Of a stretch of DNA of 64,000 nt, positions 5,115-62,977 are shown one piece after another. The position numbers and the translations under genes were made by a program. The notes beneath the pieces are model-generated. The model saw only the letters and a list, made by a program, of their open reading frames with translations, did no database searches and had not been told where the DNA came from. The stretch is taken from the NCBI GenBank assembly GCA_008360975.2, contig CM039210.1, forward strand, positions 15,936,293 through 16,000,292. Reading direction: 5' to 3'. This stretch comes from Lichenostomus cassidix. Lineage: Eukaryota > Chordata > Aves > Passeriformes > Meliphagidae. Numbering within the stretch: position 1 is the first letter of the stretch; each line of letters begins with the position of its first letter.

Positions 5115-7532
5115 AGGGGACCTGCTTCTAGCCACGTAGAGGCATGGGAGAATCGTGTCTTTTGGACTGTGTGGAAGGGATGGCCTGGCACATCAGAGCC
5201 AGAAAAATATGAATCCTTGGTTGATACTGGTGCACAGTGTACTCTAATGCCATCAGAACATTTGGGGCCAGAACCCATTTCTATTGCCAGGGTGACAGGG
5301 GGATCGCATCAGTTGACCCTGTTGGAAGGTGAGGTGAGCTTGGCTGGGAAGGAGTGGGAGAAACATCCCATTGTGACTGGTCCAGAGGCCCTGTGTATTC
5401 TGGGAATAGACTTTCTCCAGAACGGCTATTTCAAAGACCCAAAAGGACTCAGGTGGGCTTGTGAAATAGCTGCTGTGGAGGCAGAGGGCATTAGGCAACT
5501 GAACACCTTGCCTGGACTATCAGATAATCCTTCTGCAGTTGGACTCCTGAGGCTGGACGAAAAACAGGTACCAATTGCCACCTCACTAGTACACTGCTGG
5601 CATTACCGGACAAATCGTGATGCTGTGATTCCCATTCACAAGCTGATCTGTGAGCTTGAGATCCAAGGGGAGGTCAGCAAGGCCCACTCATCCTTCAACA
5701 GCCCCATTTGGCCTGTGCGCACATCTGACGGAGAATGGAGATTGACTGTGGACTATCATGGCTTGAATGAAGTGACTCCACCACTGAGTGCTGCCATGCC
5801 AGACATGCTGGAGCTCCAGTATGAGCTGGAGACCAAGGCAGCGAAGTGGTATGCCACTACAGACATTACAAATGCATTCTTCATCATTCCTCTGGCAGTA
5901 GAGTGCAGGCCTTTGTTTGCCTTCACTGGGAGAGGTGTGCAGTACACATGGAACTGACTGCCCCAGGGGTGGAAGCACAGTCCCACCATCTGCCATGGAC
6001 TGATCCAGGCTGCTCTGGAAAAGGGTAAGGCTGTGGAACATCTGCAGTACATCAATGACATCATTGTGTGGGGGAACACGGAAGAAGTATTTGAGAAAGG
6101 AGAGAAAATCATCCAGATTCTCCTGGAAGTTGGCTTCACCATCAAAAAGAGTAAAGTCAAGGGACCTGCCTGAGAGATCCTGCTCCTGGAAGTGAAGTGG
6201 CAAGACGAGTGGCATCAGATTCCTTCTGAGGTCATCAATAAGATCACAGCAATGTCTCCACCAACCAACAAGAAGGAGACGCAAGCTTTTCTAGGCTCCA
6301 TAGGTTTCTGGAGGATGCACATCCCTGAGCACGGCGAGACTGTGAACCCTCTCTACCTGGTGACCCGCAAGAAGAATGATTTCCACTGGGGCCCTGAACA
6401 GCAACAAGCCTTCGCCCAGATCAAGCAGGAGATTGCTCACGTAATAGCCCTCGGCCCAGTCAGGACAGGACCAGAAGTGAAGAATAGGCTCTACTCTGCT
6501 GCCGTGAGCAATGGTCTGCCTTGGAACCTTTGGCAGAAGGTGCCGAGTGAGATTCGGAGTCGACCACTGGGATTCTGGAGCCAAAGCTACAGAGGGTCCG
6601 AAGCCAAATACACTCCTACAGAGAAGGAAATCTTGGCAGCCTATGAAGGAATTCAAGCTGTCTCAGAGGACACAGAAGCACAACTCCTCCTGGCTCTCTG
6701 ACTACCAGTGCTGGGGTGGATGTTCAAAGGAAAGGTTCCCTCTACCCACCGCGCCACCAATGCCACATGGAGCAAATGGATTGCCCTCATCACACAGTGT
6801 GCCCGCATTGGAAACCTGAATCGCCCTGGGATCTTGGAAATAATTACAGTTGTCCCAGAGGTAAAAATTTTGGTCTGAGTGACGAAGAGGAGCAGGAACA
6901 GGTGACTCGTGCAGAGGAAGCTCCACCCTACAACCAACTGCCAGCAGAAAAAACATGCTATGCTCTTTTCACTGACGGTTCCTGTCACATTGTAAGGACA
7001 AATCGAAAATGGAAAGCAGCTCTATGGAGCCCCACACGACAGGTCACAAAAGCTACTGAAGGAGAAGGTGGATAGAGCCAACTTGCTGAACTCAAACCTG
7101 TCCAGGTGGCCCTGGACACTGCCAAAAGAGAGAAGTGGCCAAAGCTCTACCTTTACACTGATTTGTGGATGGTAGCCAATGCTCTGCAGGGTTGGCTGGA
7201 AAGGTGAAAAAAGGCCAACTGGCAGCACAGATGAAGACCCATCTGGGCTGCTGAAGAGTGGAAAGACATTGCCAATAAGGTAGAGAGGCTACCTGTGAAA
7301 GTCCGCCATGTGGATGCCCATGTCTCCAAGAGTCAGACTAATATGAGGAACACCGAAACAATGAACAGGTGGATCAGGCTGCAAAAATAGAGGTGTCCCA
7401 GATAGACTTGGATTGGCAACCCAAGGAAGAGTTGTTCCTAGCTCGATGGGCCCATGATGCCTCAGGCCATCAGGGCAGAGATGCCACCTATAAGTGGGCA
7501 TGAGACTGAGGGGTGGATTTAACCATGGACAG

Positions 7533-13178: not shown

Positions 13179-14773
13179 AGGGGCCCTGCCTCTAGCCAGG
13201 TAGAGGAAAGGGATAACCGGATCTACTGGACTGTGTGGATCCAATGGCCTGGCACGTCTGACCCACAAAGATATACGGCTTTGGTTGATACCGGTGCTCA
13301 GTGCACTCTGATGCCATCCAGGTATGTGGGGACTGAATCCATTTCTATTTCTGGGGTGACAGGAGGATCCCAGCAGCTAACTGCACTGGAAGCTGAAGTG
13401 AGTTTAACTGGGAACGAGTGGCAGAAACACCCCATTGTGACTGGTCCAGAGGCCCCATGCATCCTCAGCATAGACTATCTCAGGAGTGGATATTTCAAAG
13501 ACCCAAAGGGATATCGCTGGGCTTTTGGGATAGCAGCTGTAGAGACACAAGACATAAGACAACTGAATACCCTGCCTGGTCTCTCAGACGACCCGTCTGC
13601 TGTAGGACTACTGAGAATTGATGAGCAACAGGTACCAATTGCTAAAGCAACAGTGCACCGCCGGCAATACCGCACTGACAGAGACTCTGTGGCCCCCATC
13701 CATAAGATGATTCGGGAACTGGAGAGCCAAGGGGTGGTCAGCAAGGCCCACTCACCCTTTAACAGCCCTATATGGCCGGTGCGTAAGTCCAGTGAAGAAT
13801 GGAGACTGACAGTGGATTACCGTGGCCTGAATGAAGTCACACCACCACTGAGTGCTGCTGTACTGGACATGCTAGAACTTCAGTACGAGCTGGAATCCAA
13901 GGCAGCAAAGTGGTATGCGACCATCAACATTGCAAATGCCTTTTTCTCCATTCCTCTGGCAGCAGAGTGCAGGCCTCAGTTTGCTTTTACCTGGAGGGGC
14001 ATGCAGTACACATGGAACTGACTGCCCCAGGGGTGGAAGCACAGTCCCACCATCTGCCATGGACTGATCCAGGCTGCATTGGAAAAGGGTGAGGCTCCAG
14101 AACATTTGCAGTGTATTGATGGCATCATTGTGGGGGGGGAACCAGCACGGAAGTATTTGATAAAGGAGAGAAAATCATCGTAATTCTCCTGGAAGCCGGT
14201 TTCGCCATCAAGAAGAGCAAAGTCAAGGGACCTGCCCGAAAGATCCAGTTCCTGGGAGTGAAGTGGCAAGACGGATGACGTCAGATTCCTTCTGAGGTCA
14301 TCAATAAGATCACCGCGATGTCTCCACCAACCAGCAAAAAGGAGACGCAAGCTTTCCTAGGCGCCATAGGCTTTTGGAGAATGCACATCCCTGAGTACAG
14401 CCAGATTGTGAGTCCTTTCTTCCTCATAACCCGCAAGAAGAACGATTTCCACTGGGGCCCTGAAGAGCAGCAAGCCTTCACCCAGATCAAACAGGGGATT
14501 GCTCATGCAGTAGCCCTTGGCCCAGTCAGAAGAGGACCAGAGCTAAAGAATGTGCTTTACTCTGCAGCTGGGAGCTATGGTCTGTCCTGGAGCCTTTGGC
14601 AGAAGGTGCCTGGTGAGACCCGAGGCCGACCACTGGGATTCTGGAGTCGAAGTTACAGAGGGTCCAAAGCCAACTACACTCCCACCGAGAAGGAAATCCT
14701 GGCAGCCTATGAAGGTGTCCAAGCCGCCTCAGAGGTGATCAGCACAGAAGCACAACTTCTCAAGGCACACTGA

Positions 14774-18799: not shown

Positions 18800-19233
18800 C
18801 TTCTGGGTCTGGGGCTGGTTTGATTCACGAGTAATGGATCCAGGAGTCTCTACCAGTTGTTTTTACTGCTGTATGAGTAGTCAATAGAACTTGATAGGGT
18901 CCTTTCCACTTGGGCTGAAGGGGTTCTTCACTCCACGACCGGACGTAAACCCAATCTCCTGGCTGATGAGGGTGCACTTGAATATCCAATGGAACTGGTG
19001 AGGCTAAAACGACAAACTTATGCAGCGATGAAAGTGTTTTTCCCAAGGAAATTACATAATCTTTCAAACGATGACCACCCATTACATGGTTTTCCCCAGG
19101 AACAATCACGGTTTGGTAAGGTCTTCCATACAGGATTTCAAATGGGCTTACCTTTTCTTTGGAACTTGGCTGAATTCTGATTCTAAGTGAAGCCAAAGGC
19201 AGAGCCTGTGGCCACTTAAGTGAGGTTTCCTTG
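18800..19233 (-). pseudogene. Gamma-like pol remnant: integrase C-terminus
   Basis: The minus frame shows the integrase C-terminal region ([32 protein letters not shown]) and the tail WIHYS. It is nearly identical to 28080-28515. The upstream pol is missing because the LTR of ERV C begins at 19234. Confidence 0.75.
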
Positions 19234-20137: not shown

Positions 20138-21664
20138 ATGATGCCTTTTAAAACCTTTAAAGCATTGGTACAAGCTAATGGTAAAGTACCGGGGAACACC
20201 CCATTAGGATGCTTGCTGGGAAGATGGAAAAGTGCTGGGTTTTACCAAGACTTAAGCAAAGGAAAAATGATAGATTTTTGTAATCATGTGTGGCCTCTCT
20301 ATGCTTCTGAGGGTGGACCGGAGTGGCCTGTCAATGGTACTGTTGATGAGAACATAATTAATCCATTGATGTATTATCTAAGGGATAATGAGAAATGGGA
20401 TGAGGTACCTTATTTGGATTTGTTCCGTTATTTGGGGTCTAAAACAGAATGGCAAAAGGAGTGTGGTATGCTATTGTTGCAAGCGGGGAACGATGGAAAT
20501 GAACGTATTGGGTGCAAATCGCGTGAAACCTGTGTGAAATGTGCAGTACAGTTCTCTGGTCAAGGTGAGGATTTATCTCTAATGGTTGCCCCCTCTCGCC
20601 CTGTTCCCTCTGCTCCGCCGTACAGAAGTGGGGAAGGAGATATAGATGATACTGATACTGATGAGGATGAGGATGATGAGGAAAATAAAAAAGAATACCC
20701 GGAAGGACCTGGAGTAAATCATACCTCAGTCACCCTCCATCCCCAGACTCCTTCCCCAAGCCCCTCCCGAAGCATACAAAGAACCCCCATAGCGGCACGG
20801 ACTAGACAGGGAAGGCGGAATCAAGAGGAACCCCGAATGATAGCCCCCTTAAGGGAAGCTGTGGGCCCCCGTGGTGAGAAAGTTATTATTAAAGTACCTT
20901 TTTCTCCAGGAGATTTGGTGATTTGGAAACAATCAGCTGGGAGTTATCGGGAGGATCCTGAGCGGGTGGCCCGCGTGGTGAAGATGATAATTAAAACTCA
21001 GAATCCAGATTGGAATGATTTACAAGTATTATTAGATACATTAATGGATTCTACAGAAAAAGAGATGGTTTTACGGGCAACCAGAGAACGGGCTAGGGAA
21101 CAGCTCTGGTTACGATTGATGATAGGGGAAACGATAGATCAGATGGTCCCCGGGGATGATCTGGGGTGGGATCCGAATGAGTTAGAAGGCTTACAGAGGT
21201 TAAAAAGGTACCAGGAATTGTTGATTGAAGGCGTCTGGACTGGGATGCCCAAAACCTTAAATTGGTCTAAACTGTACTCAATAAGACAAGAAAAGAATGA
21301 ATCCCCTTCAGCATTTTTAGAGAGACTTAAAGAGGCAGCACGGCGTTTCACTAGTTTGGATGTGGAGAGGGAAGAAGGTCAGTTACAATTGGCATTGTTG
21401 TTTATGGGTCAGTCACAAGAGGATATTAGGAAAAAGTTGCAGAAATTAGAAGGGGAAGACACACGGCGCGTAGATAAGTTGTTGGAGGTAGCTTGGAAAG
21501 TTTATAATAATAGAGAAAAGGAAACGGCTAAACGACAACAGGCCGGAATTCTTGCGGTAATTCAGCAGTCTGCGTTTCGGGGGGGTTACGGGGCCGGGGA
21601 AGGGGAGGAAGGGGAATTGGACGGGGAAGGGGAGGATTCGCTCGGGGGAGAGGAGGATTTTTAG
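20138..21664 (+). CDS. gag: Gag of ERV C (matrix to capsid)
   Basis: An open frame of 508 residues. The protein starts Met-Met-Pro, so it lacks the Gly2 used for myristoylation by many gag proteins. A PSAPPY late-domain-like motif sits at 157-162, followed by a strongly acidic stretch (168-183) and a proline/serine-rich linker. The capsid-like region includes a major-homology-type element at about 381-400 (ESPSAFLERLKEA). The frame ends in an acidic glycine-rich tail at 21662-21664. This tail is probably out of frame: a run of seven G at 21579-21585 marks where the -1 frame becomes basic (RGRGG type) and leads to the zinc knuckle. Gag forms the particle shell. Whether it is expressed is unknown. 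Confidence 0.8.
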   Translation: MMPFKTFKALVQANGKVPGNTPLGCLLGRWKSAGFYQDLSKGKMIDFCNHVWPLYASEGGPEWPVNGTVDENIINPLMYYLRDNEKWDEVPYLDLFRYLGSKTEWQKECGMLLLQAGNDGNERIGCKSRETCVKCAVQFSGQGEDLSLMVAPSRPVPSAPPYRSGEGDIDDTDTDEDEDDEENKKEYPEGPGVNHTSVTLHPQTPSPSPSRSIQRTPIAARTRQGRRNQEEPRMIAPLREAVGPRGEKVIIKVPFSPGDLVIWKQSAGSYREDPERVARVVKMIIKTQNPDWNDLQVLLDTLMDSTEKEMVLRATRERAREQLWLRLMIGETIDQMVPGDDLGWDPNELEGLQRLKRYQELLIEGVWTGMPKTLNWSKLYSIRQEKNESPSAFLERLKEAARRFTSLDVEREEGQLQLALLFMGQSQEDIRKKLQKLEGEDTRRVDKLLEVAWKVYNNREKETAKRQQAGILAVIQQSAFRGGYGAGEGEEGELDGEGEDSLGGEEDF

Positions 21665-21774: not shown

Positions 21775-24700
21775 ATGAGTAATGTAGGGTTGATGGGAGG
21801 TTTCCCCGTACCGCCGGTAGATGGCGCCCAGACACAAGCACAGGCAATGATGTTAGGAAACTATAGGGACCAAAGCAGACTAGACCGGGATCTGAAGGTG
21901 AGGATAGAAATAGGCGGACAGGAGCAGGAATTTATGGTTGATACAGGGGCTACTCACTCAGTTTTAAATAAACGGTTGGGACCCATAAGTGACACAACTA
22001 TACAGGTAATAGGAGCTACGGGACAATTGGAGGAAAGGCCTTTTCTACTACCCCTTAATTTAAAATTCGGAGGAAAGGAACTGGATCATCAGTTTTTGTA
22101 TATGCCAAACTGCCCTCAGCCTCTGTTTGGACGGGATTTGCTGTCTCTATTAAATGCTAAAATTATATTTGAACAGGGTCGAGATAAATTGGAAATTCCG
22201 GATGAAGAAATCGGGAAAATATTTGCAATAAAAGAAGTGGACTCAGTACCGATTCCAACAGAGATTGAACATGCAGTGGTACCCTGGGTTTGGGAGGTGG
22301 GAACTCCGGGAAAATCAAAGGTTGCCCAGCCGGTGGTAGTTGAGCTAAAAGAAGGAGCTAAACCGGTTAGGATAAAACAGTATCCCATTAAAGCAGAGGC
22401 TCGGCAGGGAGTAGCTCCGCTGATAGCGCAGTTTACAGTGCAAGGATTATTAAAGGAATGTGAATCAGAGTATAATACTCCTATATTCCCGGTGAAGAAA
22501 CCAAATGGTAAGTATAGATTAGTTCAAGATTTAAGGGCTATAAACGAGATAGTTAAAGACATTCACCCGGTGGTTGCCAACCCTTACACATTGTTAACAT
22601 CTGTATCGGAACGATTTAAATGGTTTACTGTGATTGATTTAAAGGATGCCTTCTTCTGCATCCCACTGGCAATAGAGAGCATGAAGTATTTTGCCTTTGA
22701 ATGGGAAGAACCAATGACAGGAAGGAAGAAACAGCTCACCTGGACCAGACTGCCTCAAGGATTCAAAAACAGCCCTACCATCTTTGGTAATCAATTGGCA
22801 AAGGAATTAGAAGAATGGAAAACGACTCAGGTGAGAGAATCTCCATATTCTTATGTAGTATTGCAGTATGTAGATGATATTCTTTTGGCCACAGAAGACA
22901 AGAAGGTATGCCTCCGATTAACTGTTGCATTATTGAATATGTTGGGGCAAGCAGGATACAAGGTATCCAAGGAAAAAGTACAACTGGTCAGAGAAAGCGT
23001 CCTGTACCTAGGATGTGAGCTAACACAAGGCCTCAGACGTTTGGGGGTTAATAGAATTGAAGCTATATGCTCCATTCCACTCCCTAGAAATCACCAGGAG
23101 TTAAGATCCTTTCTGGGAATGGTTGGATGGTGCAGGCTATGGATTCCGAATTTCGGCCTGATAGCAAAACCCCTATATGAGGCTCTAAAAGAATCCCAAT
23201 TGAAATGGAATACAAACAGGGAAAAGGCGTTCCAGGATTTGAAACAAGCATTAAAAGAAGCCCTGGCCTTGGGGTTGCCAGATTTAAACAAAGACTTTCA
23301 ATTATATGTGAATGAAAGGCAGAAACTAGCATTGGGAGTTCTAACCCAGAAGTTGGGATCCTGGAAGAGGCCTGTGGGATATTTCTCCAAACAACTGGAC
23401 ACTGTAAGTACCGGTTGGCCGTCATGCTTGCGGGCCGTTGCGGCTACGGTACTTCTCATTCAGGAAGCCAGGAAACTTACCATGGGAAAAAGAATGACGG
23501 TGTATGTTCCCCACATGGTACTAGCTGTCTTGGAGCAAAAGGGGGGTCATTGGCTATCTTCCAGTAGAATGCTGCAGTATCAAGCTATTCTAAAAGAACA
23601 AGATGACATAGAACTCCAAACGACTAATCATATTAATCCAGCAGAGTTCCTCCACAGTGAGATGGAAGAACATGAGCTCTCCCATGACTGTGTGGAAGTG
23701 ATTGAACAAGTTTATTCGAGCCGAGCGGATTTGAAGGATGACCCCCTGGATGCTCCAGACTGGGAATTATTCACCGATGGTTCCAGTTTTATGGAAAACG
23801 GTACCAGGTATGCGGGATATTCAGTGGTTACAGTTACTCGAGTTGTGGAGGCACAAGCCTTGCCACCAGGTACGTCAGCCCAAAAGGCTGAGATCATTGG
23901 ACTCACTCGAGCCTTGATATTGAGCACTGGGAAAACTGTAAATATTTGGACTGATTCCAAGTATGCCTTTGGTGTGGTGCATGTTCACGGAGCACTATGG
24001 AAAGAAAGAGGACTTCTTAATTCCCAAGGGGCTGTAATAAAACATCGCACAGAAGTGTTAGCATTGTTGGATGCTGTACACCGACCAGAGCGAGTGGCCG
24101 TTATGCATGTCCGGGGACATCAGAATGAAGAAGGAAAAATCTACCAAGGTAATCATTTAGCAGATGTAACTGCAAAGCAGGCAGCTCGTCAAGTATGGAC
24201 TCAGATGGCTCTCATACCAACTAAGGTAAACCCCGTTACACCTTATATGCAACAAGCTCCAAAGTATTCACAGGATGATGAAAAACTAGCCATGTTATTG
24301 AAAGCTCGGAAAGGAGCAACAGGATGGTACATAACCAATACAGGACAAGTAGTTGTTCCCATACAGATAATGAAGGCCATCCTCATAGCTGAACATAACA
24401 AAAGTCATTGGGGAGCAGAAGCATTGGTACAATTTTTGAAGAATGAAATAATTTCCAATCAGATGTTAACGTTGGCAAAACGGGTGAATGCAATGTGCCC
24501 AGTTTGTTTAAAGAATAATCCTATTGTCAGGAAACAGATTCAGATGGGAAAATTACAAGTAGGACCAGAACCGGGAGATTATTGGCAGGTGGATTTTTCA
24601 GAATTACCCAAAGCACAAGGGTATAAATATATCCTGGTGTATGTGTGTACCTTTTCAGGGTGGCCAGAGGCCTTTCCGTGTAGGACTAATCAGGCAAAAG

Positions 24701-25398
24701 AAGTAGTGAAAACTCTCTTGAAAGAGATAATACCTAGATTTGGAGTACCTTTGGGGTTGTCATCAGATAGAGGTCCTCACTTCATTGCTAATATTGTGCA
24801 GGATGTAGCACGGATGTTAGATATTGCTTGGAATCTCCATACTCCTTGGAGACCGCAATCTAGTGGGCAAGTAGAAAGAATGAATCAAACTTTAAAGGGC
24901 CAAATTAAGAAAATCTGTCAAGAAGTCAAATTACAATGGCCTCAGGCTTTGCCACTTGCTCTCCTCCGAATTAGAATCAAGCCAAGGGAAAGATTAGGCG
25001 TGAGCCCCTATGAGATACTATATGGAAAACCTTACCATGCAACTACTTTAAAAGGAGACCCGCATGTGGTAGGGGATCAGGCAGTATATAATTATGTTGT
25101 TTCTCTGCATAGAGTTCTCAGTGCCTTGCGTGGAGCCCTGCAGTGGAACAGACCTCTTCCACTGGAAAACCCTGTGCATGATGTTCAACCAGGAGACCAA
25201 GTATATGTGAAGAACTGGTTCACAGACCCACTGAGAGAATCATGGGACGGCCCGTATCAGGTGATACTAACAACATTCACAGCAATCAAAGTGGCCGGAA
25301 TCGACTCCTGGATACATTACACGCGAGTCAAGAAGATGCCAACTCAGTGGGAATCCCAAGTCGTGTCCCCCATGCGATTGATTTTACGAGCAAAATGA
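21775..25398 (+). CDS. pol: Pol of ERV C (protease, RT, RNase H, integrase)
   Basis: An open frame of 1207 residues with every pol domain. The aspartic protease motif VDTGAT is at 55-60. RT has LVQDLRAIN, LPQGFKNSP and the catalytic YVDD at 365-368. RNase H has TDGSS with Asp 668. Integrase has the His pair 874/878 and a CPVC zinc site, the catalytic triad Asp940, Asp998 and Glu1034 (35 residues between the last two), and a C-terminal WDGPYQV segment. The shared gag-pol frame and the overlap with env (ATGA, 25395-25398) point to a gamma-type organisation. No stop or frameshift interrupts it. The first Met is only the ORF start; in life it would be made by stop suppression from gag. Confidence 0.9.
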   Translation: MSNVGLMGGFPVPPVDGAQTQAQAMMLGNYRDQSRLDRDLKVRIEIGGQEQEFMVDTGATHSVLNKRLGPISDTTIQVIGATGQLEERPFLLPLNLKFGGKELDHQFLYMPNCPQPLFGRDLLSLLNAKIIFEQGRDKLEIPDEEIGKIFAIKEVDSVPIPTEIEHAVVPWVWEVGTPGKSKVAQPVVVELKEGAKPVRIKQYPIKAEARQGVAPLIAQFTVQGLLKECESEYNTPIFPVKKPNGKYRLVQDLRAINEIVKDIHPVVANPYTLLTSVSERFKWFTVIDLKDAFFCIPLAIESMKYFAFEWEEPMTGRKKQLTWTRLPQGFKNSPTIFGNQLAKELEEWKTTQVRESPYSYVVLQYVDDILLATEDKKVCLRLTVALLNMLGQAGYKVSKEKVQLVRESVLYLGCELTQGLRRLGVNRIEAICSIPLPRNHQELRSFLGMVGWCRLWIPNFGLIAKPLYEALKESQLKWNTNREKAFQDLKQALKEALALGLPDLNKDFQLYVNERQKLALGVLTQKLGSWKRPVGYFSKQLDTVSTGWPSCLRAVAATVLLIQEARKLTMGKRMTVYVPHMVLAVLEQKGGHWLSSSRMLQYQAILKEQDDIELQTTNHINPAEFLHSEMEEHELSHDCVEVIEQVYSSRADLKDDPLDAPDWELFTDGSSFMENGTRYAGYSVVTVTRVVEAQALPPGTSAQKAEIIGLTRALILSTGKTVNIWTDSKYAFGVVHVHGALWKERGLLNSQGAVIKHRTEVLALLDAVHRPERVAVMHVRGHQNEEGKIYQGNHLADVTAKQAARQVWTQMALIPTKVNPVTPYMQQAPKYSQDDEKLAMLLKARKGATGWYITNTGQVVVPIQIMKAILIAEHNKSHWGAEALVQFLKNEIISNQMLTLAKRVNAMCPVCLKNNPIVRKQIQMGKLQVGPEPGDYWQVDFSELPKAQGYKYILVYVCTFSGWPEAFPCRTNQAKEVVKTLLKEIIPRFGVPLGLSSDRGPHFIANIVQDVARMLDIAWNLHTPWRPQSSGQVERMNQTLKGQIKKICQEVKLQWPQALPLALLRIRIKPRERLGVSPYEILYGKPYHATTLKGDPHVVGDQAVYNYVVSLHRVLSALRGALQWNRPLPLENPVHDVQPGDQVYVKNWFTDPLRESWDGPYQVILTTFTAIKVAGIDSWIHYTRVKKMPTQWESQVVSPMRLILRAK

Positions 25399-27779
25399 AA
25401 ATTGTAATTGCTGTATTTCTAGTTATGCTAAAAATATTACCTGTTGATGAACATGTACTTGTCACTGTTTCAGATCCTGTAATCGGAGCAATGGAAGGAA
25501 TGACTGTAAACTTGACTTGTGAAATCACTGATGACCAGGGAGCTGGAGTCGATGAGATAAGTACATATTGGAGAAAAGAGCAAACACTCACTAATGTTAT
25601 CAATAGTACATTTTGGGATAAGGACACACAAAGAGGCAATACCACATTACAACTTACCAACGTTAGCATGGAAAGTGCTGGGATATATACATGTCTGGTA
25701 AAAATTAGGTGGAGTTTTGATTATAAACAAATCACACTAGGGGTTATGACATGGCAAAGCAACTCGGCAATAAAAGTCTCACCTTACCAAGCATCAGTTG
25801 ACATGTGGGATGGTCCACCCTCAAAAATAAATTGCTCATTCACAGCCCAACATGAATGTAGCAGCATGTTCACAGTTACTTGGTGGAAATTAGCTAGACA
25901 GATAATGTGGGAAAGGCCGGAAGGAAAGAGTGACCTGCAGGCAGGAAGCGATAGTGGAATTGGATGGTTAAATGATACTCAGGCACGTGTGGGGAAAAAT
26001 GAGGGATTATATCTCTGTGTGATAAGCTGTGGTTCTATGATGGGGTACGGGAAGAGAGAAGTACAAGGAAAAAGTCATCTAATGGATGGGTTAAGACCTA
26101 CCCATGGGATTTACCAGGCGGTCCGTGGTACTTCTGTAATTTTATTTTGCCAACCAGAGCGTGGAATTGTTTTCTCTGAGTTTGGATGGTGGTTTAAGAA
26201 AGGAAATGTCCAGGAAGGGGGGAAATACCAATTAGAGAAGCGATTAGGAGGCATGTTAACTCTAGTGATACAGGATGTTCAACCAGAGGATGAAGGGACA
26301 TATTGGTGTTGGATTGCCCAAGATGCATGGTGGACACACGCTGTGACTTTGGTATCCCTTACTAGGGCACGAATAAATAAAAGAAGAATTAGAGATGTTG
26401 AAATTGGAAATAAAACCTGGGTTTTTCACCATAACCCAGAACAAGAAAACTTAATTGTAGGTTTAATTCGAGACTTTGGAGAAATGCAGAATGTTTCTAA
26501 AATCACTGCTTGTTTACCTCTGCCTCGAGCAGCGGGAGAACCAATTCCATGGGGAATAGTTCCCGTCACTGATTTGTCTGAGGCATATGTACATGTAACT
26601 TGGAGCTGTAAATTGGTTCCTAATGAGTACTATGACTGGAAAGAGGGTTGTATGTTGGTCCAGAGGGTTACTGAACACCAATGCAGGCAGATGCCAGGAT
26701 ATTATGCATGGCTGACAACATCAAGAGGTAATAAGTGTGTTGTTTCAGGGCCTGTTTCAGAACCGTGTAACAAAGTGACTCTCAAGGAACAAAAGGTTAG
26801 AGAGGAAGAAGTCTGTCAAAATGTTACCCAGACCCAGTCTTTAGAAGACGAATGGGGAACAATTTGGGGACCAAGCCTTTTAGAAACATATAGCTACTTA
26901 GGACAAGTTAATTGGTGCATACAATGGACAGGAAGTAAAAACCAGACTTACACTGAGGTAATGAACCTCCAGACTACCAGACGGGAGAAGAGGGACCAAA
27001 AAGACATCTGGAATTGTACCCAAGTAATCACATGTGACACACCAAAAGATAAAATAGGGCTCGTACCAGTAAGAGTCTTGCTAAAATGGGGATGTGAATG
27101 TCGAGGATACAACCATAAAATTACAGACCAAATTCAAGGAGATGAAAATGGGAAGAGAATCATCAGTTGTAAATCTACTACTATCAGAAGTCCAGGAAAC
27201 CTAGTTTGGGTTATGGGGCATGGAAAGTGGACCACCCATATGCCAATAGATGGGCCTGTCACACAAATTACTTTAGGAATTCCGACCTTATGTCCGTTTT
27301 GGAAACAGTCTAATTTGACCCGACAATCAGCTAGGACTAAACAAGACTTGGATGATGAAAACGAATGGCATGAGCCAACCAGTGGAGTTAAATTCGGGTG
27401 GGCTTTGGAATCCTTGTTTGCACCTATAGCTTCATATCGGAACAGGGATACGCTCTACAAACTAATGGGGCAGACTGAAAGATTGGCAGCAGCCACTAAG
27501 AAAGGATTTAAAGATTTCAATATTCAGTTACAGGCTACCACAAGAATGACATTACAAAATAGAATGCAGTTTATTAAAGGAGAAGCGGTGCGGGGGAGGC
27601 ACACTGGGGGCTCTCGGGTGGGGCGGTCCACGCAGCTGCCGGGTGCAGAGCAAGGCGGGGCTGGGGTCGCGGCCACACCACACCGAGAGAACAAAGGGAG
27701 GGGGTTTTTAGGGGGAGGTGCGGGGTTTCTCGGGGAGGGACAACAGGGGCGGAGCCAACGGGGCTCCGGGACAACATGA
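25395..27779 (+). CDS. env: Env of ERV C with N-terminal Ig-like domains, TM truncated
   Basis: The start codon overlaps the pol stop. A signal-peptide-like N-terminus (1-20) is followed by three Ig-like units. Unit 1, about 22-118: Cys42, Trp59, GIYTC ending at Cys100. Unit 2, about 128-225: Cys147, Trp163/164, GLYLC ending at Cys208. Unit 3, about 238-325: Cys252, Trp265/266, DEGTYWC ending at Cys305. A basic cluster (324-333) leads into a cysteine-rich surface subunit (ITACLPLPRAAG at 370-381; CECR at 567-570). A weak cleavage-like site lies at 643-650, then a helical TM region, LYKLMGQTERLAAATKKGF at 687-705. The retroviral part stops near residue 725 (27567), before any membrane anchor. 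The remaining 70 codons are read from unrelated GC-rich DNA. Fusion machinery is therefore incomplete, and the product would be secreted or unstable. Confidence 0.8.
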   Translation: MKIVIAVFLVMLKILPVDEHVLVTVSDPVIGAMEGMTVNLTCEITDDQGAGVDEISTYWRKEQTLTNVINSTFWDKDTQRGNTTLQLTNVSMESAGIYTCLVKIRWSFDYKQITLGVMTWQSNSAIKVSPYQASVDMWDGPPSKINCSFTAQHECSSMFTVTWWKLARQIMWERPEGKSDLQAGSDSGIGWLNDTQARVGKNEGLYLCVISCGSMMGYGKREVQGKSHLMDGLRPTHGIYQAVRGTSVILFCQPERGIVFSEFGWWFKKGNVQEGGKYQLEKRLGGMLTLVIQDVQPEDEGTYWCWIAQDAWWTHAVTLVSLTRARINKRRIRDVEIGNKTWVFHHNPEQENLIVGLIRDFGEMQNVSKITACLPLPRAAGEPIPWGIVPVTDLSEAYVHVTWSCKLVPNEYYDWKEGCMLVQRVTEHQCRQMPGYYAWLTTSRGNKCVVSGPVSEPCNKVTLKEQKVREEEVCQNVTQTQSLEDEWGTIWGPSLLETYSYLGQVNWCIQWTGSKNQTYTEVMNLQTTRREKRDQKDIWNCTQVITCDTPKDKIGLVPVRVLLKWGCECRGYNHKITDQIQGDENGKRIISCKSTTIRSPGNLVWVMGHGKWTTHMPIDGPVTQITLGIPTLCPFWKQSNLTRQSARTKQDLDDENEWHEPTSGVKFGWALESLFAPIASYRNRDTLYKLMGQTERLAAATKKGFKDFNIQLQATTRMTLQNRMQFIKGEAVRGRHTGGSRVGRSTQLPGAEQGGAGVAATPHRENKGRGFLGGGAGFLGEGQQGRSQRGSGTT

Positions 27780-28075
27780 GGGACAAGCGGGGGAGCAAAT
27801 GAAATATAACTAGGGAGGGGATTACAAACAACCCATGGGGGAAGCCCGGCAACAGAACATTCTAGTGAGGGCAAGCAGCAGGGGCGGTGATAGGGGCGGG
27901 GAAGCGAACTTTAAACCAATAAACTTAGGAAAAACTTTCCAGGGGAGGGAGAGTACGGCTCATGGCCCGGCCTCCTCCGAGCCCCAGGATATGGCATCTT
28001 CAGTGGTTTCTGCATGGATGGCATTGGCCAATGGTCCTGGGGACTCGGGATCCGCGGCATCGGGCCGCCGTACCT
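27568..28075 (+). other. GC-rich segment of unknown origin between ERV C and remnant E
   Basis: No protein similarity is visible. It is purine-rich with GGGGCGG boxes, and near 27917 AACCAATAAACTTAGGAAAA resembles the end of an ERV internal region or an LTR. It truncates the C env at 27567 and meets the minus pol remnant at 28076. It could be a piece of another LTR or a host CpG-rich segment. Confidence 0.35.
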
Positions 28076-29440
28076 CTACACTTCTGGGTCTGGGGCTGGT
28101 TTGATTCGCGAGTAATGGATCCAGGAGTCTCCACCAGTTGTTTTTACTGCTGTATGAGTAGTCAATAGAACTTGATAGGGTCCTTTCCACTTGGGCTGAA
28201 GGGGTTCTTCACTCCACGACCGGACGTAAACCCAATCTCCTGGCTGATGAGGGTGCACTTGAATATCCAATGGAACTGGTGAGGCTAAAACGACAAACTT
28301 ATGCAGCGATGAAAGTGTTTTTCCCAAGGAAATTACATACTCTTTCAAATGATGATCACCTATTACGTGATTTTCTCCAGGAACCATCACGGTTTGGTAA
28401 GGTCTTCCATACAGGATTTCAAATGGGCTTACCTTCTCCTTGGAACTTGGCTGAATTCTGATTCTAAGTAAAGCCAAAGGCAGAGCCTGTGGCCACTTAA
28501 GCGAGGTTTCCTGACAGATTTTACTCATTTGTCTTTTTAGGCTTTGATTCATTCTTTCAACTCTGCCACTGGATTATGGTCTCCAAGGAGTATGCAAATC
28601 CCATTTGATTCCTAAAGTTTTGGACAGGTTTTGCACAATATCTGCGATGAAATGGGGTCCCCTATCAGAGGACATTCCTAAGGGGACTCCGAACTGAGGT
28701 ACTATTTCCTTTAACAATATTTTAGTAACTTCTTTAGATTTGTTGGTGCGACAGGGAAAAGCTTCAGGCCATCCAGAAAATGTATCAACCAAAACTAGCA
28801 GGTATCAAAATCCCTCTTGCTGAGGTAATTCAGAGAAATCAATTTGCTAATAGTCACCTGGACAATTTCCTCTTTTTGTGGTTCCAGGAGAAGGTCTTTT
28901 GTAGGACTGAGGATTGTTCTGCAAGCATATTTTACATTTCCCAACAATACTTTTAATGATTCCAGTCATTCTTACACTGACTACTTGTGGCTTTAAGCTA
29001 TCAATAATAGCTTCTGCCCCCCAATGTGTTTCCTTATGCTTGTCTTCAGCTATTTGTCTCATTACTGCTTGAGGTACTATAACTTGTTTTTGTGATGTCA
29101 CCCACCACCCCTCAGAGTTTAGGTGGGCTTTTAAGTGTTCAACTAACATTTTATCATGGGTTTGGTATTCCGGGGTTACTTGTGGAAGGTTCGTGTATTT
29201 TGATGGAACAACTATAAGGATGCTTTTCTCTGCCACCTCTTTAGCAGTTTTATCTGCCAATCTGTTTCCAACATTAGTCGGTGTATTTCCAAATTGATTA
29301 GCTTTACAGTGCATAACAGCCACTTGGATTGGTAGCTGAACGCTATCCAGAAGTTGTTTAATAACATCTCCATACTTAATAGGAGATCCTTGTGCTGAGA
29401 GGAGCCCTCGTTCTTTCCAGATAGCTCCATGAGCATGTAC
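28076..29440 (-). pseudogene. Gamma-like pol remnant E: RNase H end and integrase
   Basis: Minus-strand pieces in pol order: end of RNase H (HAHGAIWKERGLL near 29430), integrase zinc region (HKETHWGAEA and CKICLQNNP), core (DTFSGWPEAFPCRT, SSDRGPHF), and C-terminal region ([20 protein letters not shown]). Stops near 28850, 28795 and 28573 break it. The 28080-28515 part is nearly the same as 18800-19233. Provirus F interrupts it at 29446. Confidence 0.8.
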
Positions 29441-30474: not shown

Positions 30475-33153
30475 TCAACCCCAACTAAGGTCTCCCTGAG
30501 GTATGCATCGTGCTTCTCCATCCTTTTGCATCACCCACCAGGTACACCCTGGTCCCTGAGCGAAAACAACCCCACGGGTGGGTCTGTCTTTGCCTGAGGT
30601 AGAATCAATCCAAACAGTTTTCCCTAGCATGCCTCTCATGTGTACCACTGGAACTTTATCCCCGTCTGCTGTTTGCAGGGGTTCAGATTGGGCAGGGCCA
30701 GCTCGGTTGGTGGAACCTCGGGTGTTAACTAGCCAGGTGGCCTTGGCTAAATGCTGTTCCCAACCTTTAAAAGTCCCCCCGCCTAAAGCTTTCAAGGTGG
30801 TTTTTAGCAGACCATTGCATCGTTCCACTTTGCCAGCAGCAGGTGCATGATAAGGAATGTGGTACACCCACTCAATGCCATGTTCCCTAGCCCAGGTGTT
30901 TATGAGGCTATTTTTAAAATGAGTCCCGTTGTCTGACTCAATTCTCTCAGGGGTACCATGCCTCCACAGGACTTGGTTTTCAAGGCCCAGGATGGTGTTA
31001 CGGGCAGTGGCGTGAGGCACAGGGTAGGTTTCCAGCCACCCCGTGGTGGCTTCTACCATTGTGAGCACGTAGCACTTGCCATGGCGGGTTTGAGGCAGTG
31101 TGATGTAATCAATCTGCCAGGCCTCTCCATACTTATATTTAGACCACCTTCCACCATACCACAGGGGTTTCACCCGCTTGGCTTGCTTGATGGCAGCACA
31201 TGTCTCACAATTATGGATTACCTGGGAGATACAGTCCATGGTTAGATCCACCCCTCGGTCTCGTGCCCACTTGTAGGTGGCATCTCTGCCCTGATGGCCT
31301 GAGGCATCATGGGCCCATCGAGCTAGGAACAGCTCCCCCTTGTGTTGCCAATCCAAATCTATTTGTGACACTTTTATCTTTGCAGCTTTATCCACCTGTT
31401 CGTTGTTTCGGTGTTCCTCATTAGCTCGGCTCTTGGGGACATGGGCATCTACATGACGGACTTTCACAGGTAGTTTCTCCACCCTAGCGGCAATGTCCCG
31501 CCATTCATCAGCAGCCCAGATTGGTCTTCCTCTACGCTGCCAGCTGGCTTTCTTCCACCTTTCCAACCAACCCCATAGAGCATTGGCTACCATCCATGAA
31601 TCAGTGTAGAGGTAAAGCTTTGGCCACTTCTCTCTTTCAGCAATGTCCAGGGCCAGCTGGACAGCTTTGAGTTCAGCAAGTTGACTCGATCCCCCCTCTC
31701 CTTCTGTAGCCTCTGCGACCCGTCGTGTGGGGCTCCATACAGCTGCTTTCCACTTCCTATTTGCCCCCACAATACGACAGGAACCATCAGTGAACAGAGC
31801 GTAGCGTGTTTCATCTTGTGGCAGTTGGTTGTAAGGTGGAGCTTCCTCTGCGCGAGTCACTTGTTCCTGCTCCTCTTCATCCGTGAGGCCAAAGTCTTCA
31901 CCTTCGGGCCAATTTGTAATTATTTCTAAGATCCCAGGGCGATTCGGGTTTCCAATACGGGCGCGCTGTGTGATGAGAGCAATCCATTTGCTCCACGTGA
32001 CATCAGTGGCATGGTGGGTTGATGGAACCTTCCCCTTGAACATCCACCCCAGCACTGGCAGTCGGGGTGCAAGGAGAAGTTGGGCTTCCGTACCAATTAC
32101 CTCTGAGGCGGCTTGGACTCCTTCATAGGCTGCTAGGATTTCCTTCTCAGTGGGAGTATAGTTGGCTTCGGACCCTCTGTAACTTCGGCTCCAGAATCCC
32201 AGTGGTCGACCTCGAGTCTCGCCAGGCACCTTCTGCCACAGGCTCCAGGACAGACCATTTCCCCCGGCTGCAGAGTAGAGCACATTCTTCACTTCTGGTC
32301 CTGTCCTGACTGGGCCAAGGGCTACTGCATGAGCGATCTCCTGCTTGATCTGAGCAAAGGCTTTTTGCTGTTCAGGGCCCCAGCGGAAATCATTCTTCTT
32401 GCGTGTCACCAGGTAGAGAGGACTAACAATTTGGCTGTACTCGGGGATATGCATCCTCCAGAAACCTATGGCGCCTAGGAAGGCTTGTGTCTCCTTCTTG
32501 TTGGTTGGTGGGGACATCGCTGTGATCTTGTTGATGACTTCGGTAGGAATCTGACGTCGGCCATCTTGCCACTTCACTCCTAGGAACTGGATCTCTTGGG
32601 CAGGTCCTTTGACTTTGCTCTTCTTGATGGCGAAGCCGGCTTCCAGGAGAATTTGGATGATTTTCTCTCCTTTCTCAAACACTTCTTCCGCTGTGCTCCC
32701 CCACACAATGATGTCGTCGATGTACTGCAGATGTTCCGGAGCCTCACCCTTTTCCAGAGCAGCCTGGATCAGTCCATGGCAGATGGTGGGACTGTGCTTC
32801 CACCCCTGGGGCAGTCGGGTCCAGGTATACTGCACGCCCCTCCAGGTGAAAGCAAACTGAGGTCTGCACTCTGTTGCCAGAGGAATGGAGAAAAATGCAT
32901 TTGCAATGTCAATAGTGGCATACCACTTTGCTGCCTTGGACTCTAGCTCATACTGGAGCTCCAGCATGTCTGGCACAGCAGCACTCAGAGGTGGAGTCAC
33001 CTCATTCAAGGCACGATAGTCCACAGTCAATCTCCATTCTCCGTCAGATTTGCGCACAGGCCAGATGGGGCTGTTAAAGGATGAGTGGGCCTTGCTGACC
33101 ACCCCTTGGCTCTCCAGCTCACGGATCATCTTGTGGATGGGAACCACAGCATC
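30475..33153 (-). CDS. pol: Pol of provirus F (RT, RNase H, integrase)
   Basis: An open frame of 890 codons after the TGA at 33154-33156. Counting from the codon at 33147: RT has LTVDYRALNE, LPQGWKHSP and an intact YIDD at 142-145. RNase H has FTDGS with Asp453 and YTDS with Asp516. Integrase has His613/His618 and Cys647/Cys650, then Asp680, Asp739 and Glu775 in DD35E spacing. It is the intact counterpart of the A and B remnants and the best template for judging their decay. YIDD and the lack of env fit class III (ERVL, spuma-related) elements. It is made in life as part of a gag-pol polyprotein; here one stop separates it from protease. Confidence 0.9.
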   Translation of the reverse strand, partial: DAVVPIHKMIRELESQGVVSKAHSSFNSPIWPVRKSDGEWRLTVDYRALNEVTPPLSAAVPDMLELQYELESKAAKWYATIDIANAFFSIPLATECRPQFAFTWRGVQYTWTRLPQGWKHSPTICHGLIQAALEKGEAPEHLQYIDDIIVWGSTAEEVFEKGEKIIQILLEAGFAIKKSKVKGPAQEIQFLGVKWQDGRRQIPTEVINKITAMSPPTNKKETQAFLGAIGFWRMHIPEYSQIVSPLYLVTRKKNDFRWGPEQQKAFAQIKQEIAHAVALGPVRTGPEVKNVLYSAAGGNGLSWSLWQKVPGETRGRPLGFWSRSYRGSEANYTPTEKEILAAYEGVQAASEVIGTEAQLLLAPRLPVLGWMFKGKVPSTHHATDVTWSKWIALITQRARIGNPNRPGILEIITNWPEGEDFGLTDEEEQEQVTRAEEAPPYNQLPQDETRYALFTDGSCRIVGANRKWKAAVWSPTRRVAEATEGEGGSSQLAELKAVQLALDIAEREKWPKLYLYTDSWMVANALWGWLERWKKASWQRRGRPIWAADEWRDIAARVEKLPVKVRHVDAHVPKSRANEEHRNNEQVDKAAKIKVSQIDLDWQHKGELFLARWAHDASGHQGRDATYKWARDRGVDLTMDCISQVIHNCETCAAIKQAKRVKPLWYGGRWSKYKYGEAWQIDYITLPQTRHGKCYVLTMVEATTGWLETYPVPHATARNTILGLENQVLWRHGTPERIESDNGTHFKNSLINTWAREHGIEWVYHIPYHAPAAGKVERCNGLLKTTLKALGGGTFKGWEQHLAKATWLVNTRGSTNRAGPAQSEPLQTADGDKVPVVHMRGMLGKTVWIDSTSGKDRPTRGVVFAQGPGCTWWVMQKDGEARCIPQGDLSWG

Positions 33154-59878: not shown

Positions 59879-62800
59879 GTATGGGATGTCAAAATTCCAG
59901 GAAGATCAAAACAGGCTTCCTCAGTGGTTATTGAACTGCTGGAAGGAGTACAGCCAGTATCAGTAAAGCAATATCCACTAAGGCATGAAGCACGGGTAGG
60001 AATAGAACCAATAATTGCTAAATTTATTGATCAAGGGTTGTTGAGAGAATATAGGTCTGCCTACAGTACCCCAATTCTACCAGTGCAAAAGCCAAATGGA
60101 AGTTACAGATTAGTACAGGACCTGAGGGCAATAAATGCAATAACAAAACCACTACATCCTGTAGTGTCTAACCCTTTCACCTTGCTAACAAAATTGCAAA
60201 GTGACTGGGTGTGGTTTTCAGTTTTAGATTTAAAAGATGCTTTCTTTTGTCTGCCATTAGCTGAAAGCAGTCAGGAAATTTTTGCCTTTGAATGGGAAAA
60301 CCCCAAAACAGGGAGAAAAATCCAACTTACATGGACTGTATTGCCACAAGGATTCAAAAATAGCCCCACAATATTTGGAGATCAATTAGCTAAAGAACTG
60401 GAAGGCTGGACGCCGCCCCTTGGGGAAGGTACACTTCTGCAGTATGTTGATGACCTACTAATAGCAACAAGGACTCGTGAAGACTGCAAGAATTGGACTG
60501 TAAGCCTTTTAAACTTCCTGGGACTAAATGGATATAGGGTCTCTCCTGAGAAGTCTCAGTTGGTCCTCCAGAAAGTTACATATCTGGGATATGAATTGGC
60601 AGGAGGAGAGAGAGCCTTGGGAAACAACAGGAAGGAGGCAATCTGTCAAATGCCCCGGCCAACTACAATCAAAGAACTGAAAACCTTTCTGGGCATGACA
60701 GGATGGTGTAGGTTGTGGATCCCTCGTTATGGGTTGATTGTGAAACCCCTGTACCTACTCCTAAAGGAAACCAAGGGGACCTACCTATGCTGGACACCAG
60801 AGACTAATAATGCATTTGTAACTCTGAAACGTGAGCTAATGCAAGCCCGGGCATTGGGTATACCAGATATCACTAAACCTTTTCAGTTGTTCTCACATAA
60901 GAGGCAAGGACTGGCGTTGGGACTTTTGGCACAGAAGCTGGGACCCTACAAAAGGCCAGTGGCTTATTTCTCTAAGCAATTGGATGTGGTCAGCCGAGGA
61001 TGGCCCGCCTGCCTGCGTGCAGTGGCAGCTGTGATCCTGGACATAGAAGAAGCCCGCAAGTTCACAATGGGCCAGAAGATAACTGTTTTTGTCTCTCATA
61101 CAGTGTCAGCAGTGCTCACACAGAAAGGAAATCACTGGTTAACCCCATCTCGCTTTCTCAAATATCAAGCTGTCCTAGCAGAATCAGACAATGTGAGTAT
61201 CCAGGTAACCAACATCTTAAATCCAGCAGCTTACCTCCAGGGCAGAGCTACCGAAGAGCCTGTACAACATGACTGCATTGAAACCATGGAGGCAGTTTAC
61301 TCCAGCCGTCCAGACCTGAAGGACTCTCCGCTGGAAGATGCGGAAAACTGGTTCACTGATGGAAGCAGTTATGTCAGAGATGGTAAACGCCTTGCTGGGT
61401 ATGCAGCTACAACCACAGATGCCGTCATTGAAGCAAAACTGTTACCTGTGGGGACATCTGCTCAAAAGGCTGAGATAATAGCTCTAACTCGAGCCTTGGC
61501 ACTAGCCAAAGGAAAGCCTGTCAACATTTGGACTGATTCAAGGTATGCTTTTGGGGTGGTACATGCTCATGGGGCTATCTGGAAGGAGAGGGGTTTATTA
61601 ACCTCGCAGAAGAAAGAAGTCAAGCATGCTACTGAAATCTTACAATTGCTAGAAGCAGTGCTGAAACCTTTAAAAGTGGCTATAATGCATTGTAAAGGGC
61701 ACTCCCAGGGGAACACCATCCCTGAACTGGGAAATGCTATGGCAGACAAAACAGCAAAGGCAGTGGCTGGTGCAGTTCAAATACAAGCCCTAGCTCTAAT
61801 CCCTTCTAGCATCCTTATGGGTGAGAAACCCCCACTATATGACACCGATGATTTGAATTGGATACAAAAAGAGAAAGGACAAATAGGAGCAGACGGGTGG
61901 GCTAGAATAAAGGATCTCCTGGTCATACCCAGAAAATTGTTATTTATCCAAAGCGAACATTCCAAAACACATTGGGGAGTTGATGCCTTACATAACCATT
62001 TAAAGAGCAAAGTGATAGCAACAAAATTAAAGGAGACAATCGAGGACATAACTTCCACTTGTGAAATCTGTCTTAGAAACAACCCTAATACCACTGTTAG
62101 GCAAAACACTGGAACAATCCTCAAAGGAGCCTTACCAGGGGATGTATGGCAAATTGACTTTTCTGAATTACCTAGAAAAGGGGGATACAAGTACCTTTTA
62201 GTCCTCACAGACACTTTCTCCGGTTGGCCGGAAGCCTTCCCTTGTAGAACAAATAAAGCTAGAGAAGTTGTTAAAGCCTTAGTACAAGAAATAATTCCAC
62301 GATTTGGGGTACCCAGGGAAATTAATTCTGATAGGGGATCACACTTTGTAGCTCAGGTGGTTCAGGGAGTAAGTAATCTACTAGGCATATGCTGGCAACT
62401 ACATCCACCATACAGGCCACAGGCAAATGGACAAGTCGAAAAGATGAATCACTTAATAAAGCAACAATTAGCCAAAATTTGTCAAGAAACCAACTTATAT
62501 TGGTATCAGGCTCTGCCCATGGCTTTGCTAAGAATTAGGGGAAAACCACGGCTCAAGGAAAAACTGAGTCCCTTTGAAATTTTGTATGGAAGGCCCTATG
62601 GAACAAATGTGATTCACAATGACAGTGTGGCTCTGGTAGGGCAAAACTATCTAATAGATTATGTAAAATATTTAGGTCAAAAGTTACAATCAATACACAC
62701 TACTGTTGTTAATTGTAAACCCCCACCACCTGATAAACCCTTTCATAATGTGAATCTGGGGGACTGGGTTTATGTTAAGTCTCTTTCAGGAAATCCACTC

Positions 62801-62977
62801 CAGGAAAAGTGGGAAGGACCTTATCAAACGTTGCTGGTGACTCATACAGCAATTAAAGTACAGGGAAAATCGACTTGGATGCATTATACCAGGACCAAAC
62901 TCGCACCAAGACCAGAGTGGGAGACAAGAAGAACAGGACCTCTGCGCCTTCAAATACGAAAAATCAATACAACATGA
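59879..62977 (+). CDS. pol: Pol of provirus D (RT, RNase H, integrase; protease missing)
   Basis: The frame is open from 59849 in the LTR and reads pol from VWDV (59879), the point just after protease by alignment with ERV C pol. Numbering from the codon at 59924: RT has LVQDLRAIN, LPQGFKNSP and YVDD (174-177). RNase H has FTDGSS and WTDSRYAFG. Integrase has HSKTHWG, a CEIC zinc half, the triad Asp745, Asp803 and Glu839 in DD35E spacing, and the C-terminal WEGPYQTLL. There is no internal stop over 1017 codons. Gag, protease and primer site are absent, so the enzyme would have no normal way to be made. The stop overlaps an env start as ATGA (62974-62977). Confidence 0.88.
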   Translation, partial: VWDVKIPGRSKQASSVVIELLEGVQPVSVKQYPLRHEARVGIEPIIAKFIDQGLLREYRSAYSTPILPVQKPNGSYRLVQDLRAINAITKPLHPVVSNPFTLLTKLQSDWVWFSVLDLKDAFFCLPLAESSQEIFAFEWENPKTGRKIQLTWTVLPQGFKNSPTIFGDQLAKELEGWTPPLGEGTLLQYVDDLLIATRTREDCKNWTVSLLNFLGLNGYRVSPEKSQLVLQKVTYLGYELAGGERALGNNRKEAICQMPRPTTIKELKTFLGMTGWCRLWIPRYGLIVKPLYLLLKETKGTYLCWTPETNNAFVTLKRELMQARALGIPDITKPFQLFSHKRQGLALGLLAQKLGPYKRPVAYFSKQLDVVSRGWPACLRAVAAVILDIEEARKFTMGQKITVFVSHTVSAVLTQKGNHWLTPSRFLKYQAVLAESDNVSIQVTNILNPAAYLQGRATEEPVQHDCIETMEAVYSSRPDLKDSPLEDAENWFTDGSSYVRDGKRLAGYAATTTDAVIEAKLLPVGTSAQKAEIIALTRALALAKGKPVNIWTDSRYAFGVVHAHGAIWKERGLLTSQKKEVKHATEILQLLEAVLKPLKVAIMHCKGHSQGNTIPELGNAMADKTAKAVAGAVQIQALALIPSSILMGEKPPLYDTDDLNWIQKEKGQIGADGWARIKDLLVIPRKLLFIQSEHSKTHWGVDALHNHLKSKVIATKLKETIEDITSTCEICLRNNPNTTVRQNTGTILKGALPGDVWQIDFSELPRKGGYKYLLVLTDTFSGWPEAFPCRTNKAREVVKALVQEIIPRFGVPREINSDRGSHFVAQVVQGVSNLLGICWQLHPPYRPQANGQVEKMNHLIKQQLAKICQETNLYWYQALPMALLRIRGKPRLKEKLSPFEILYGRPYGTNVIHNDSVALVGQNYLIDYVKYLGQKLQSIHTTVVNCKPPPPDKPFHNVNLGDWVYVKSLSGNPLQEKWEGPYQTLLVTHTAIKVQGKSTWMHYTRTKLAPRPEWETRRTGPLRLQIRKINTT

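Follow-up and report, generated by a model that had tools for sequence, protein, structure and literature searches.

An endogenous retrovirus (ERV) in the bird Lichenostomus cassidix encodes an envelope protein (Env) in which three tandem immunoglobulin (Ig) domains, encoded at 25452-26369, follow the signal peptide and precede the surface subunit (SU). The provirus lies in a stretch of 64,000 nt (the window; assembly GCA_008360975.2, CM039210.1 positions 15,936,293 to 16,000,292, forward strand), and its features are given here in window coordinates, on the plus strand unless stated otherwise. On balance, we consider it probable that this provirus belongs to a bird retrovirus lineage whose Env carries an accessory three-Ig module, a B7-like immune modulator that is displayed or shed.

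The immunoglobulin array and its envelope

The original prediction, that three Ig units stand at the N terminus of one uninterrupted env frame, is borne out by both profile searches and structure prediction. The whole protein matches Pfam ig (3.9e-16), Ig_3 (2.2e-15) and V-set (5.3e-13), and an AlphaFold2 model of the Ig segment contains three beta-sandwich domains (predicted local distance difference test, pLDDT, 84; predicted template modelling score, pTM, 0.72). Behind the start codon and signal peptide (25395..25451; a hydrophobic stretch, with a helix at 3-12 in the model), unit 1 (25452..25754) is V-type and B7-like, and unit 3 (26076..26369), which contains the motif DEGTYWCW, is V/I-type. 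Each of these two units alone exceeds the curated Pfam cut-offs (ig 2.0e-10 and 5.6e-8, respectively; V-set 3.3e-7 for unit 3). Unit 2 (25755..26075) is divergent: alone it has no Pfam match above cut-off (best Ig_VWDE, 0.025) and its PDB profile matches are weak, and in the model it forms a beta sandwich. A search of NCBIfam gave no match. The cysteine pairs that had been proposed (Cys42/100, 147/208 and 252/305) are at the positions claimed and are invariant in all rows covering them (the env residue number is the alignment position + 19 in the seven-row alignment A2). Unit 2 has two extra invariant cysteines, so that Cys147, 155, 208 and 212 are all conserved across the seven rows; Cys155 and Cys212 presumably form a second disulfide. 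With Pfam Ig matches above cut-off and beta sandwiches that hold paired cysteines and a core tryptophan, the module is a true Ig array and falls within the Ig superfamily.

The receptor-binding domain of Friend murine leukaemia virus (MLV) is likewise a beta sandwich, with Ig-like topology, but we know of no Ig sequence hallmarks in it. Because the module matches Ig domains at the sequence level, we reject the reading that it is merely an MLV-type, Ig-like receptor-binding domain. The duplication of one unit into three was also rejected. In hhalign comparisons units 1 and 3 match with a probability of 93, and are alike as Ig domains are, with no sign of recent duplication; unit 2 resembles neither neighbour well (26 and 23 against units 1 and 3).

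The nearest solved structures to unit 1, in both profile and fold, are the B7 family members CD276, PD-L2 and PD-L1 (22-25% identity in structural alignments), a ranking drawn from solved structures only. B7 proteins are host membrane proteins, unlike the viral Env module. In the B7 layout an IgC-type domain follows the IgV-type domain, and the corresponding profile matches of unit 2 are weak (best E 0.011). Unit 3 matches titin, CEACAM and pIgR chains alike. The CD300/pIgR likeness originally suggested is modified by these matches: pIgR is one of several for unit 3, and unit 1 is nearest to B7.

The envelope is gamma-like but is not a canonical gamma-type Env. It has the SU-TM (transmembrane subunit) build in common with gamma-type Env, with an R-x-[KR]-R site in 16 of 18 rows, and TLV_coat matches above cut-off were found in a duck homologue (6.6e-8) and in an Ig-less sister provirus of the same genome (L031, 2.8e-5). 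The SU and TM piece of the window copy has no TLV_coat match. The family differs from gamma-type Env in the Ig module in front, in the lack of CxxC in SU (none of seven homologues scanned), and in the absence of CX6CC from TM, where C-x9-CC occurs in six of the seven homologues and neither motif in the seventh; the window copy ends before this site. The published definition of the gamma-type Env motifs includes the point that alpharetroviruses also lack CxxC (PMC9967133). The AlphaFold2 model of SU and TM is poor (pLDDT 57), and against viral folds it gave no match below 0.001 (Echidna ERV env, E 0.023, probability 0.75).

The provirus is bounded by two 432-bp terminal direct repeats that represent at least part of the long terminal repeats (18800..19231 and 28081..28512; ends approximate) and are 96.8% identical (Kimura two-parameter distance 0.033). 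Between them lie gag (20138..21664; Gag_p30 1.2e-34), pro-pol (21775..25398; RVP, RVT_1, RNase_H, rve and MLVIN_C) and env. The env frame (25395-27779) is uninterrupted across the Ig segment and its start overlaps the end of pol at 25398, as originally predicted. Further downstream the env of the window copy is defective: at 27566 it diverges from the sequence common to seven other copies with which it was compared, and the remainder of TM is missing. An open upstream extension of the env frame within the end of pol (25242..25394) is similar in homologues, a likeness that may be explained by the pol overlap. The linker from the Ig module to SU (26370..26444) holds a basic RxxR site. It is followed by the SU core (26445..27380), which is 49-61% identical to 19 Ig-bearing or fragment rows and 42% identical to the duck row, and by the N-terminal part of TM (27384..27566). 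At its SU/TM boundary the window copy lacks a match to R-x-[KR]-R.

Past the TM break (27566-28080) the frame continues into G-rich non-Env sequence, the start of which is not common to the seven compared copies. The window as a whole is an ERV cluster. It includes a second gamma-like pol open reading frame (ORF) of 1017 residues at 59924-62977 (MLVIN_C), with DNA 74-78% identical to short parts of the provirus pol, and further ERV pol pieces at 30478-33147 (minus strand), 5169-5954 and 13233-14018.

Recurrence and purifying selection

The genome from which the window comes (1.10 Gb) contains 48 matches to the Ig segment. Residues 1-325 are covered at 97-100% identity by 38 of these, on nine contigs; 34 of the 38 are free of stops and four contain them. 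The SU search of the same genome, in which the best 108 of 338 candidates were scored, gave at least 43 long same-family matches at 95-100% identity and at least 114 matches overall. Open frames of 930 residues occur in twelve of the 38 Ig rows, and a further row has a frame of 948; therefore Ig, SU and TM form a single protein in this family.

Selection was assessed from pairwise ratios of nonsynonymous to synonymous differences (pN/pS) among 28 loci (L001-L028, with L029-L038 excluded; gapless 24 for Ig, 26 for SU and 6 for pol). The ratio is 0.23 in the Ig segment (bootstrap 0.13-0.40; 19 distinct copies), 0.21 in SU (bootstrap 0.10-0.40; 21 distinct copies) and 0.16 in a stretch of pol (6 copies). 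Thus, the Ig module as a whole is kept by purifying selection while the family multiplied. For single units the ratios are 0.34 (0.12-0.99) in unit 1, 0.30 (0.11-1.06) in unit 2 and 0.23 (0.09-0.61) in unit 3, so that retention is secured for the module as a whole rather than for unit 2 alone.

Eight copies (e.g., L002 and L004) appear to have their frame interrupted immediately after the Ig module, which leaves the Ig part as a separate ORF (458 residues in seven, 417 in one) and an SU frame of 490 residues in all eight. These copies seem to form a small subfamily sharing that break. A single 24.1-Mb contig holds 36 of the 48 Ig matches, and our guess is that it is the ERV-rich W chromosome.

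Other birds have related proteins. A search of 5.8 billion proteins gave 23 matches, all from birds where a species is named, and an Ig-profile search added Chloebia gouldiae. At least one Ig unit is present in proviral proteins of 13 named bird species (Serinus, Pipra, Zosterops, Prinia, Colius, Myiozetetes, Melospiza, Manacus, Hirundo, Acridotheres, Catharus, Oenanthe and Chloebia). The protein LOC127060434 of Serinus canaria has the same order of signal peptide, Ig, SU and TM (51% identity over 98%), as do LOC120324666 of Pipra filicauda and other uncharacterised bird proteins, in which the number of units ranges from three down to part of one. Three units occur in five named species, with some gene models cut. 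The rows in which TM accompanies all three are P0003 (Serinus canaria), P0004 (Pipra filicauda), P0006 and P0005 (Zosterops borbonicus), the last with a gene model that starts within unit 1. The array is present with unit 1 cut or damaged, in models without TM, in P0008 (Colius striatus), P0019 and P0025 (Hirundo). Two units are kept in P0007 (Prinia), P0021 (Oenanthe) and P0011 (Melospiza), and one or part of one in the remaining rows. Identity among the Env Ig modules is 34-53% (21 pairs, aligned with MAFFT). In one Hirundo gene model (P0029), integrase, part of Ig unit 1 and a C-type lectin domain follow one another; it is probably a prediction artefact that joins a provirus to a host gene.

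These results bear on the possibility that a host gene was inserted in a single copy, or that the arrangement is an artefact of assembly. Homologous env genes without Ig do exist in the same genome, as a local insertion would predict, but such a reading is refuted by the 38 full-length copies on several contigs and by the same order in the proteins of other birds, and we give it practically no credence. Together with the purifying selection, the same evidence upholds the original view of a viral arrangement rather than a later fusion.

Probable gain of the module and an avipoxvirus relative

Ten sister loci were selected from the more distant SU matches in the same genome. By aligned piece, their identity is 50-87% in integrase (weaker pieces of neighbouring elements aside), 26-58% in SU and 61-72% in TM, and the overlap leader was matched in six of the ten. 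No match to units 1-3 was obtained at E 0.01 in any of the ten loci. There, the spacing between integrase and SU matches is ~183-245 nt, compared with ~1055 nt in the window provirus. The env ORFs of L029 and L031 consist of a signal peptide, ~40 residues, SU, a basic site and TM. Ig is likewise missing from the duck homologue (P0022), whose SU and TM stand behind an unrelated stretch. In this gene model a reverse transcriptase of another kind (RVT_thumb) stands ahead of SU and TM, and it may be a recombinant or a fused gene model. Given that the Ig-less sisters have related pol, SU and TM, the module was probably added onto an already complete Env.

An unrooted tree of SU and TM, from which Ig was excluded, separates 18 Ig-bearing rows from 4 Ig-less rows at 100/100. 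The Ig-less rows are the duck homologue and three near-identical sister loci, the three of the ten that have an open piece and a start motif. Fragments or composites (P0018, P0020 and P0023-P0025) were excluded from the 22 rows, and P0013 and P0017 were scored as one-unit rows though only part of unit 1 remains in them. Three-, two- and one-unit rows are intermixed within the Ig-bearing group. A tree of unit 1 (17 chosen rows) recovers SU clades A and C, not B. The Ig module was largely inherited jointly with SU, and one gain or one loss would separate the two clades, most simply a single gain. The module would have been gained at about the time when the Ig-bearing and Ig-less clades parted, with units 2 and 3 lost several times later. 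That the array is instead ancestral to Env, and was lost in the clade of the duck row and the sister loci, seems to us rather unlikely. In an unrooted tree one loss is as cheap as one gain, but this history would require an early and general loss, given that, to our knowledge, the known gamma-type Envs are without such an array. Passages on the features of gamma-type Env likewise mention no Ig array (PMC9967133).

Among predicted viral structures, the top Foldseek match of the module is the shearwaterpox protein SWPV1-183 (E 3.2e-35; template modelling score, TM-score, 0.65/0.63; root-mean-square deviation 6.7), and the next viral match has an E-value of 2.7e-13 and 11% identity. SWPV1-183 (332 residues, compared with 325 in the Env segment) is 36% identical over 318 aligned columns that include all three domains. 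The match is therefore to the whole three-Ig array at near-equal length, with clear sequence homology as read from the Foldseek columns. The best canarypox match of SWPV1-183 is the Ig-like domain protein CNPV081, at 54% (PMC5390406), and an albatrosspox table contains several Ig-like domain proteins (PMC8151833). Unlike the Env module, SWPV1-183 and CNPV081 are encoded by large DNA viruses as genes on their own, and neither is joined to SU or TM. The window Env is roughly as similar to the pox protein as to other Envs, since 36% falls inside the 34-53% range among Env modules, with the caveat that the Foldseek and MAFFT measures differ.

The link between the module and the pox protein may reflect transfer from retrovirus to poxvirus, transfer from poxvirus to retrovirus, or two separate captures of one host gene. 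We tentatively entertain, short of preferring it, the direct passage of a three-domain Ig gene between the retrovirus lineage and avipoxviruses, as a cleavable Env module in the former, a free-standing protein in the latter and a B7-like modulator in both. If so, the direction would most simply be from retrovirus to poxvirus, by analogy with the retroviral provirus carried by fowlpox virus (PMC9578705); reticuloendotheliosis viruses have been found integrated in the genomes of large DNA viruses (PMC3754887). The relationship suggests an immune-modulating gene that is common to viruses and hosts. Searches for the host source gene gave six matches with a profile and one with a single sequence, these being provirus-linked or uncharacterised proteins, from birds where a species is named. 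Such searches need shared exact words and missed the pox relative too, so they are insensitive, and the absence of a host gene is not established. Scans of viral contigs with pol and with Ig alignments gave no confirmed relative.

Possible functions and implications

The accessory modulator that we favour would be translocated along with Env and would fold apart from the entry machinery. It could be displayed on virions and infected cells, or be cleaved at the RxxR site and shed. On immune cells the module may then engage or block a receptor of the B7 type, or a different partner from the Ig superfamily, which would damp the immune response, and the free-standing version may do the same job in avipoxviruses. 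We prefer this role to that of a receptor-binding domain because the sisters have the SU core without the module, the pox relative is a protein on its own, unit 1 resembles B7 proteins and the junction with SU holds an RxxR site. This site is found at that junction in 17 of 20 rows, the window copy and the Ig-less duck among them (16 of 19 if the duck is set aside), against a background of 0.17 in other windows and 0.40 in shuffled linkers; in the Ig-less ORFs of the three sister loci L029-L031, no RxxR was seen by eye ahead of SU.

An accessory attachment or receptor-binding region, which would tether virions to a counter-receptor and shift tropism, is a weaker contender. Selection on the module is like that on SU, and adhesion-type Igs are among its matches, as might be expected of such a region. 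However, the SU core is present in the Ig-less sisters, reduced modules coexist with SU and TM, and the pox relative stands outside any entry protein. The original prediction had named receptor binding, decoy and immune interaction as possible roles; of these, receptor binding is made less likely by the SU core that is retained where the Ig module is absent, and immune interaction is favoured. The module could also serve chiefly as a glycan-bearing shield or spacer, keeping SU out of reach of antibodies, given the six N-glycosylation sequons within the 325-residue Ig segment of the window copy. We regard this as improbable, as the Ig-fold cores and cysteines are conserved beyond what a shield would seem to need.

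Several points weigh against a B7-like accessory modulator or the history proposed for it. The B7 likeness of unit 1 comes from solved structures only, the Z values of antibody and adhesion Igs against the model are similar, and TM-scores of the whole array to PDB chains are low (0.2-0.4). The RxxR site is a minimal motif, missing in three of the 20 rows, found at about twice the rate of shuffled linkers and shared by the Ig-less duck; the binding partner, expression and cleavage of the module are all predicted. The pN/pS intervals of units 1 and 2 are wide, and the congruence of raw identities between Ig and SU is weak (r 0.20, 21 pairs), although agreement is better in the tree of unit 1. 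The unrooted tree also allows one loss, with an Ig-less clade made up of the duck row and one sister family. Repeated loss of units 2 and 3 speaks against a single fixed function of all three. Several of the reduced forms come from gene models in which units were possibly spliced out, although P0016, on a contig of 2323 bases, has scarcely space for introns.

Most known cases of host genes captured by retroviruses are in defective viruses that cause tumours. In the titles and abstract openings of the literature matches listed, no retroviral Env with Ig domains is described, and an earlier mention in Henzy and others (2014), on recombinant retroviruses of birds, is possible. A module of the Ig superfamily that became fixed in the Env of a lineage known from several songbirds and one mousebird would represent a capture that has lasted under selection where host and virus meet. 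With the match in avipoxviruses, existing sequences are enough to test directly for gene traffic between a retrovirus and a large DNA virus that share hosts, and the sister proviruses without Ig in this genome provide a natural control for the effect of the module.

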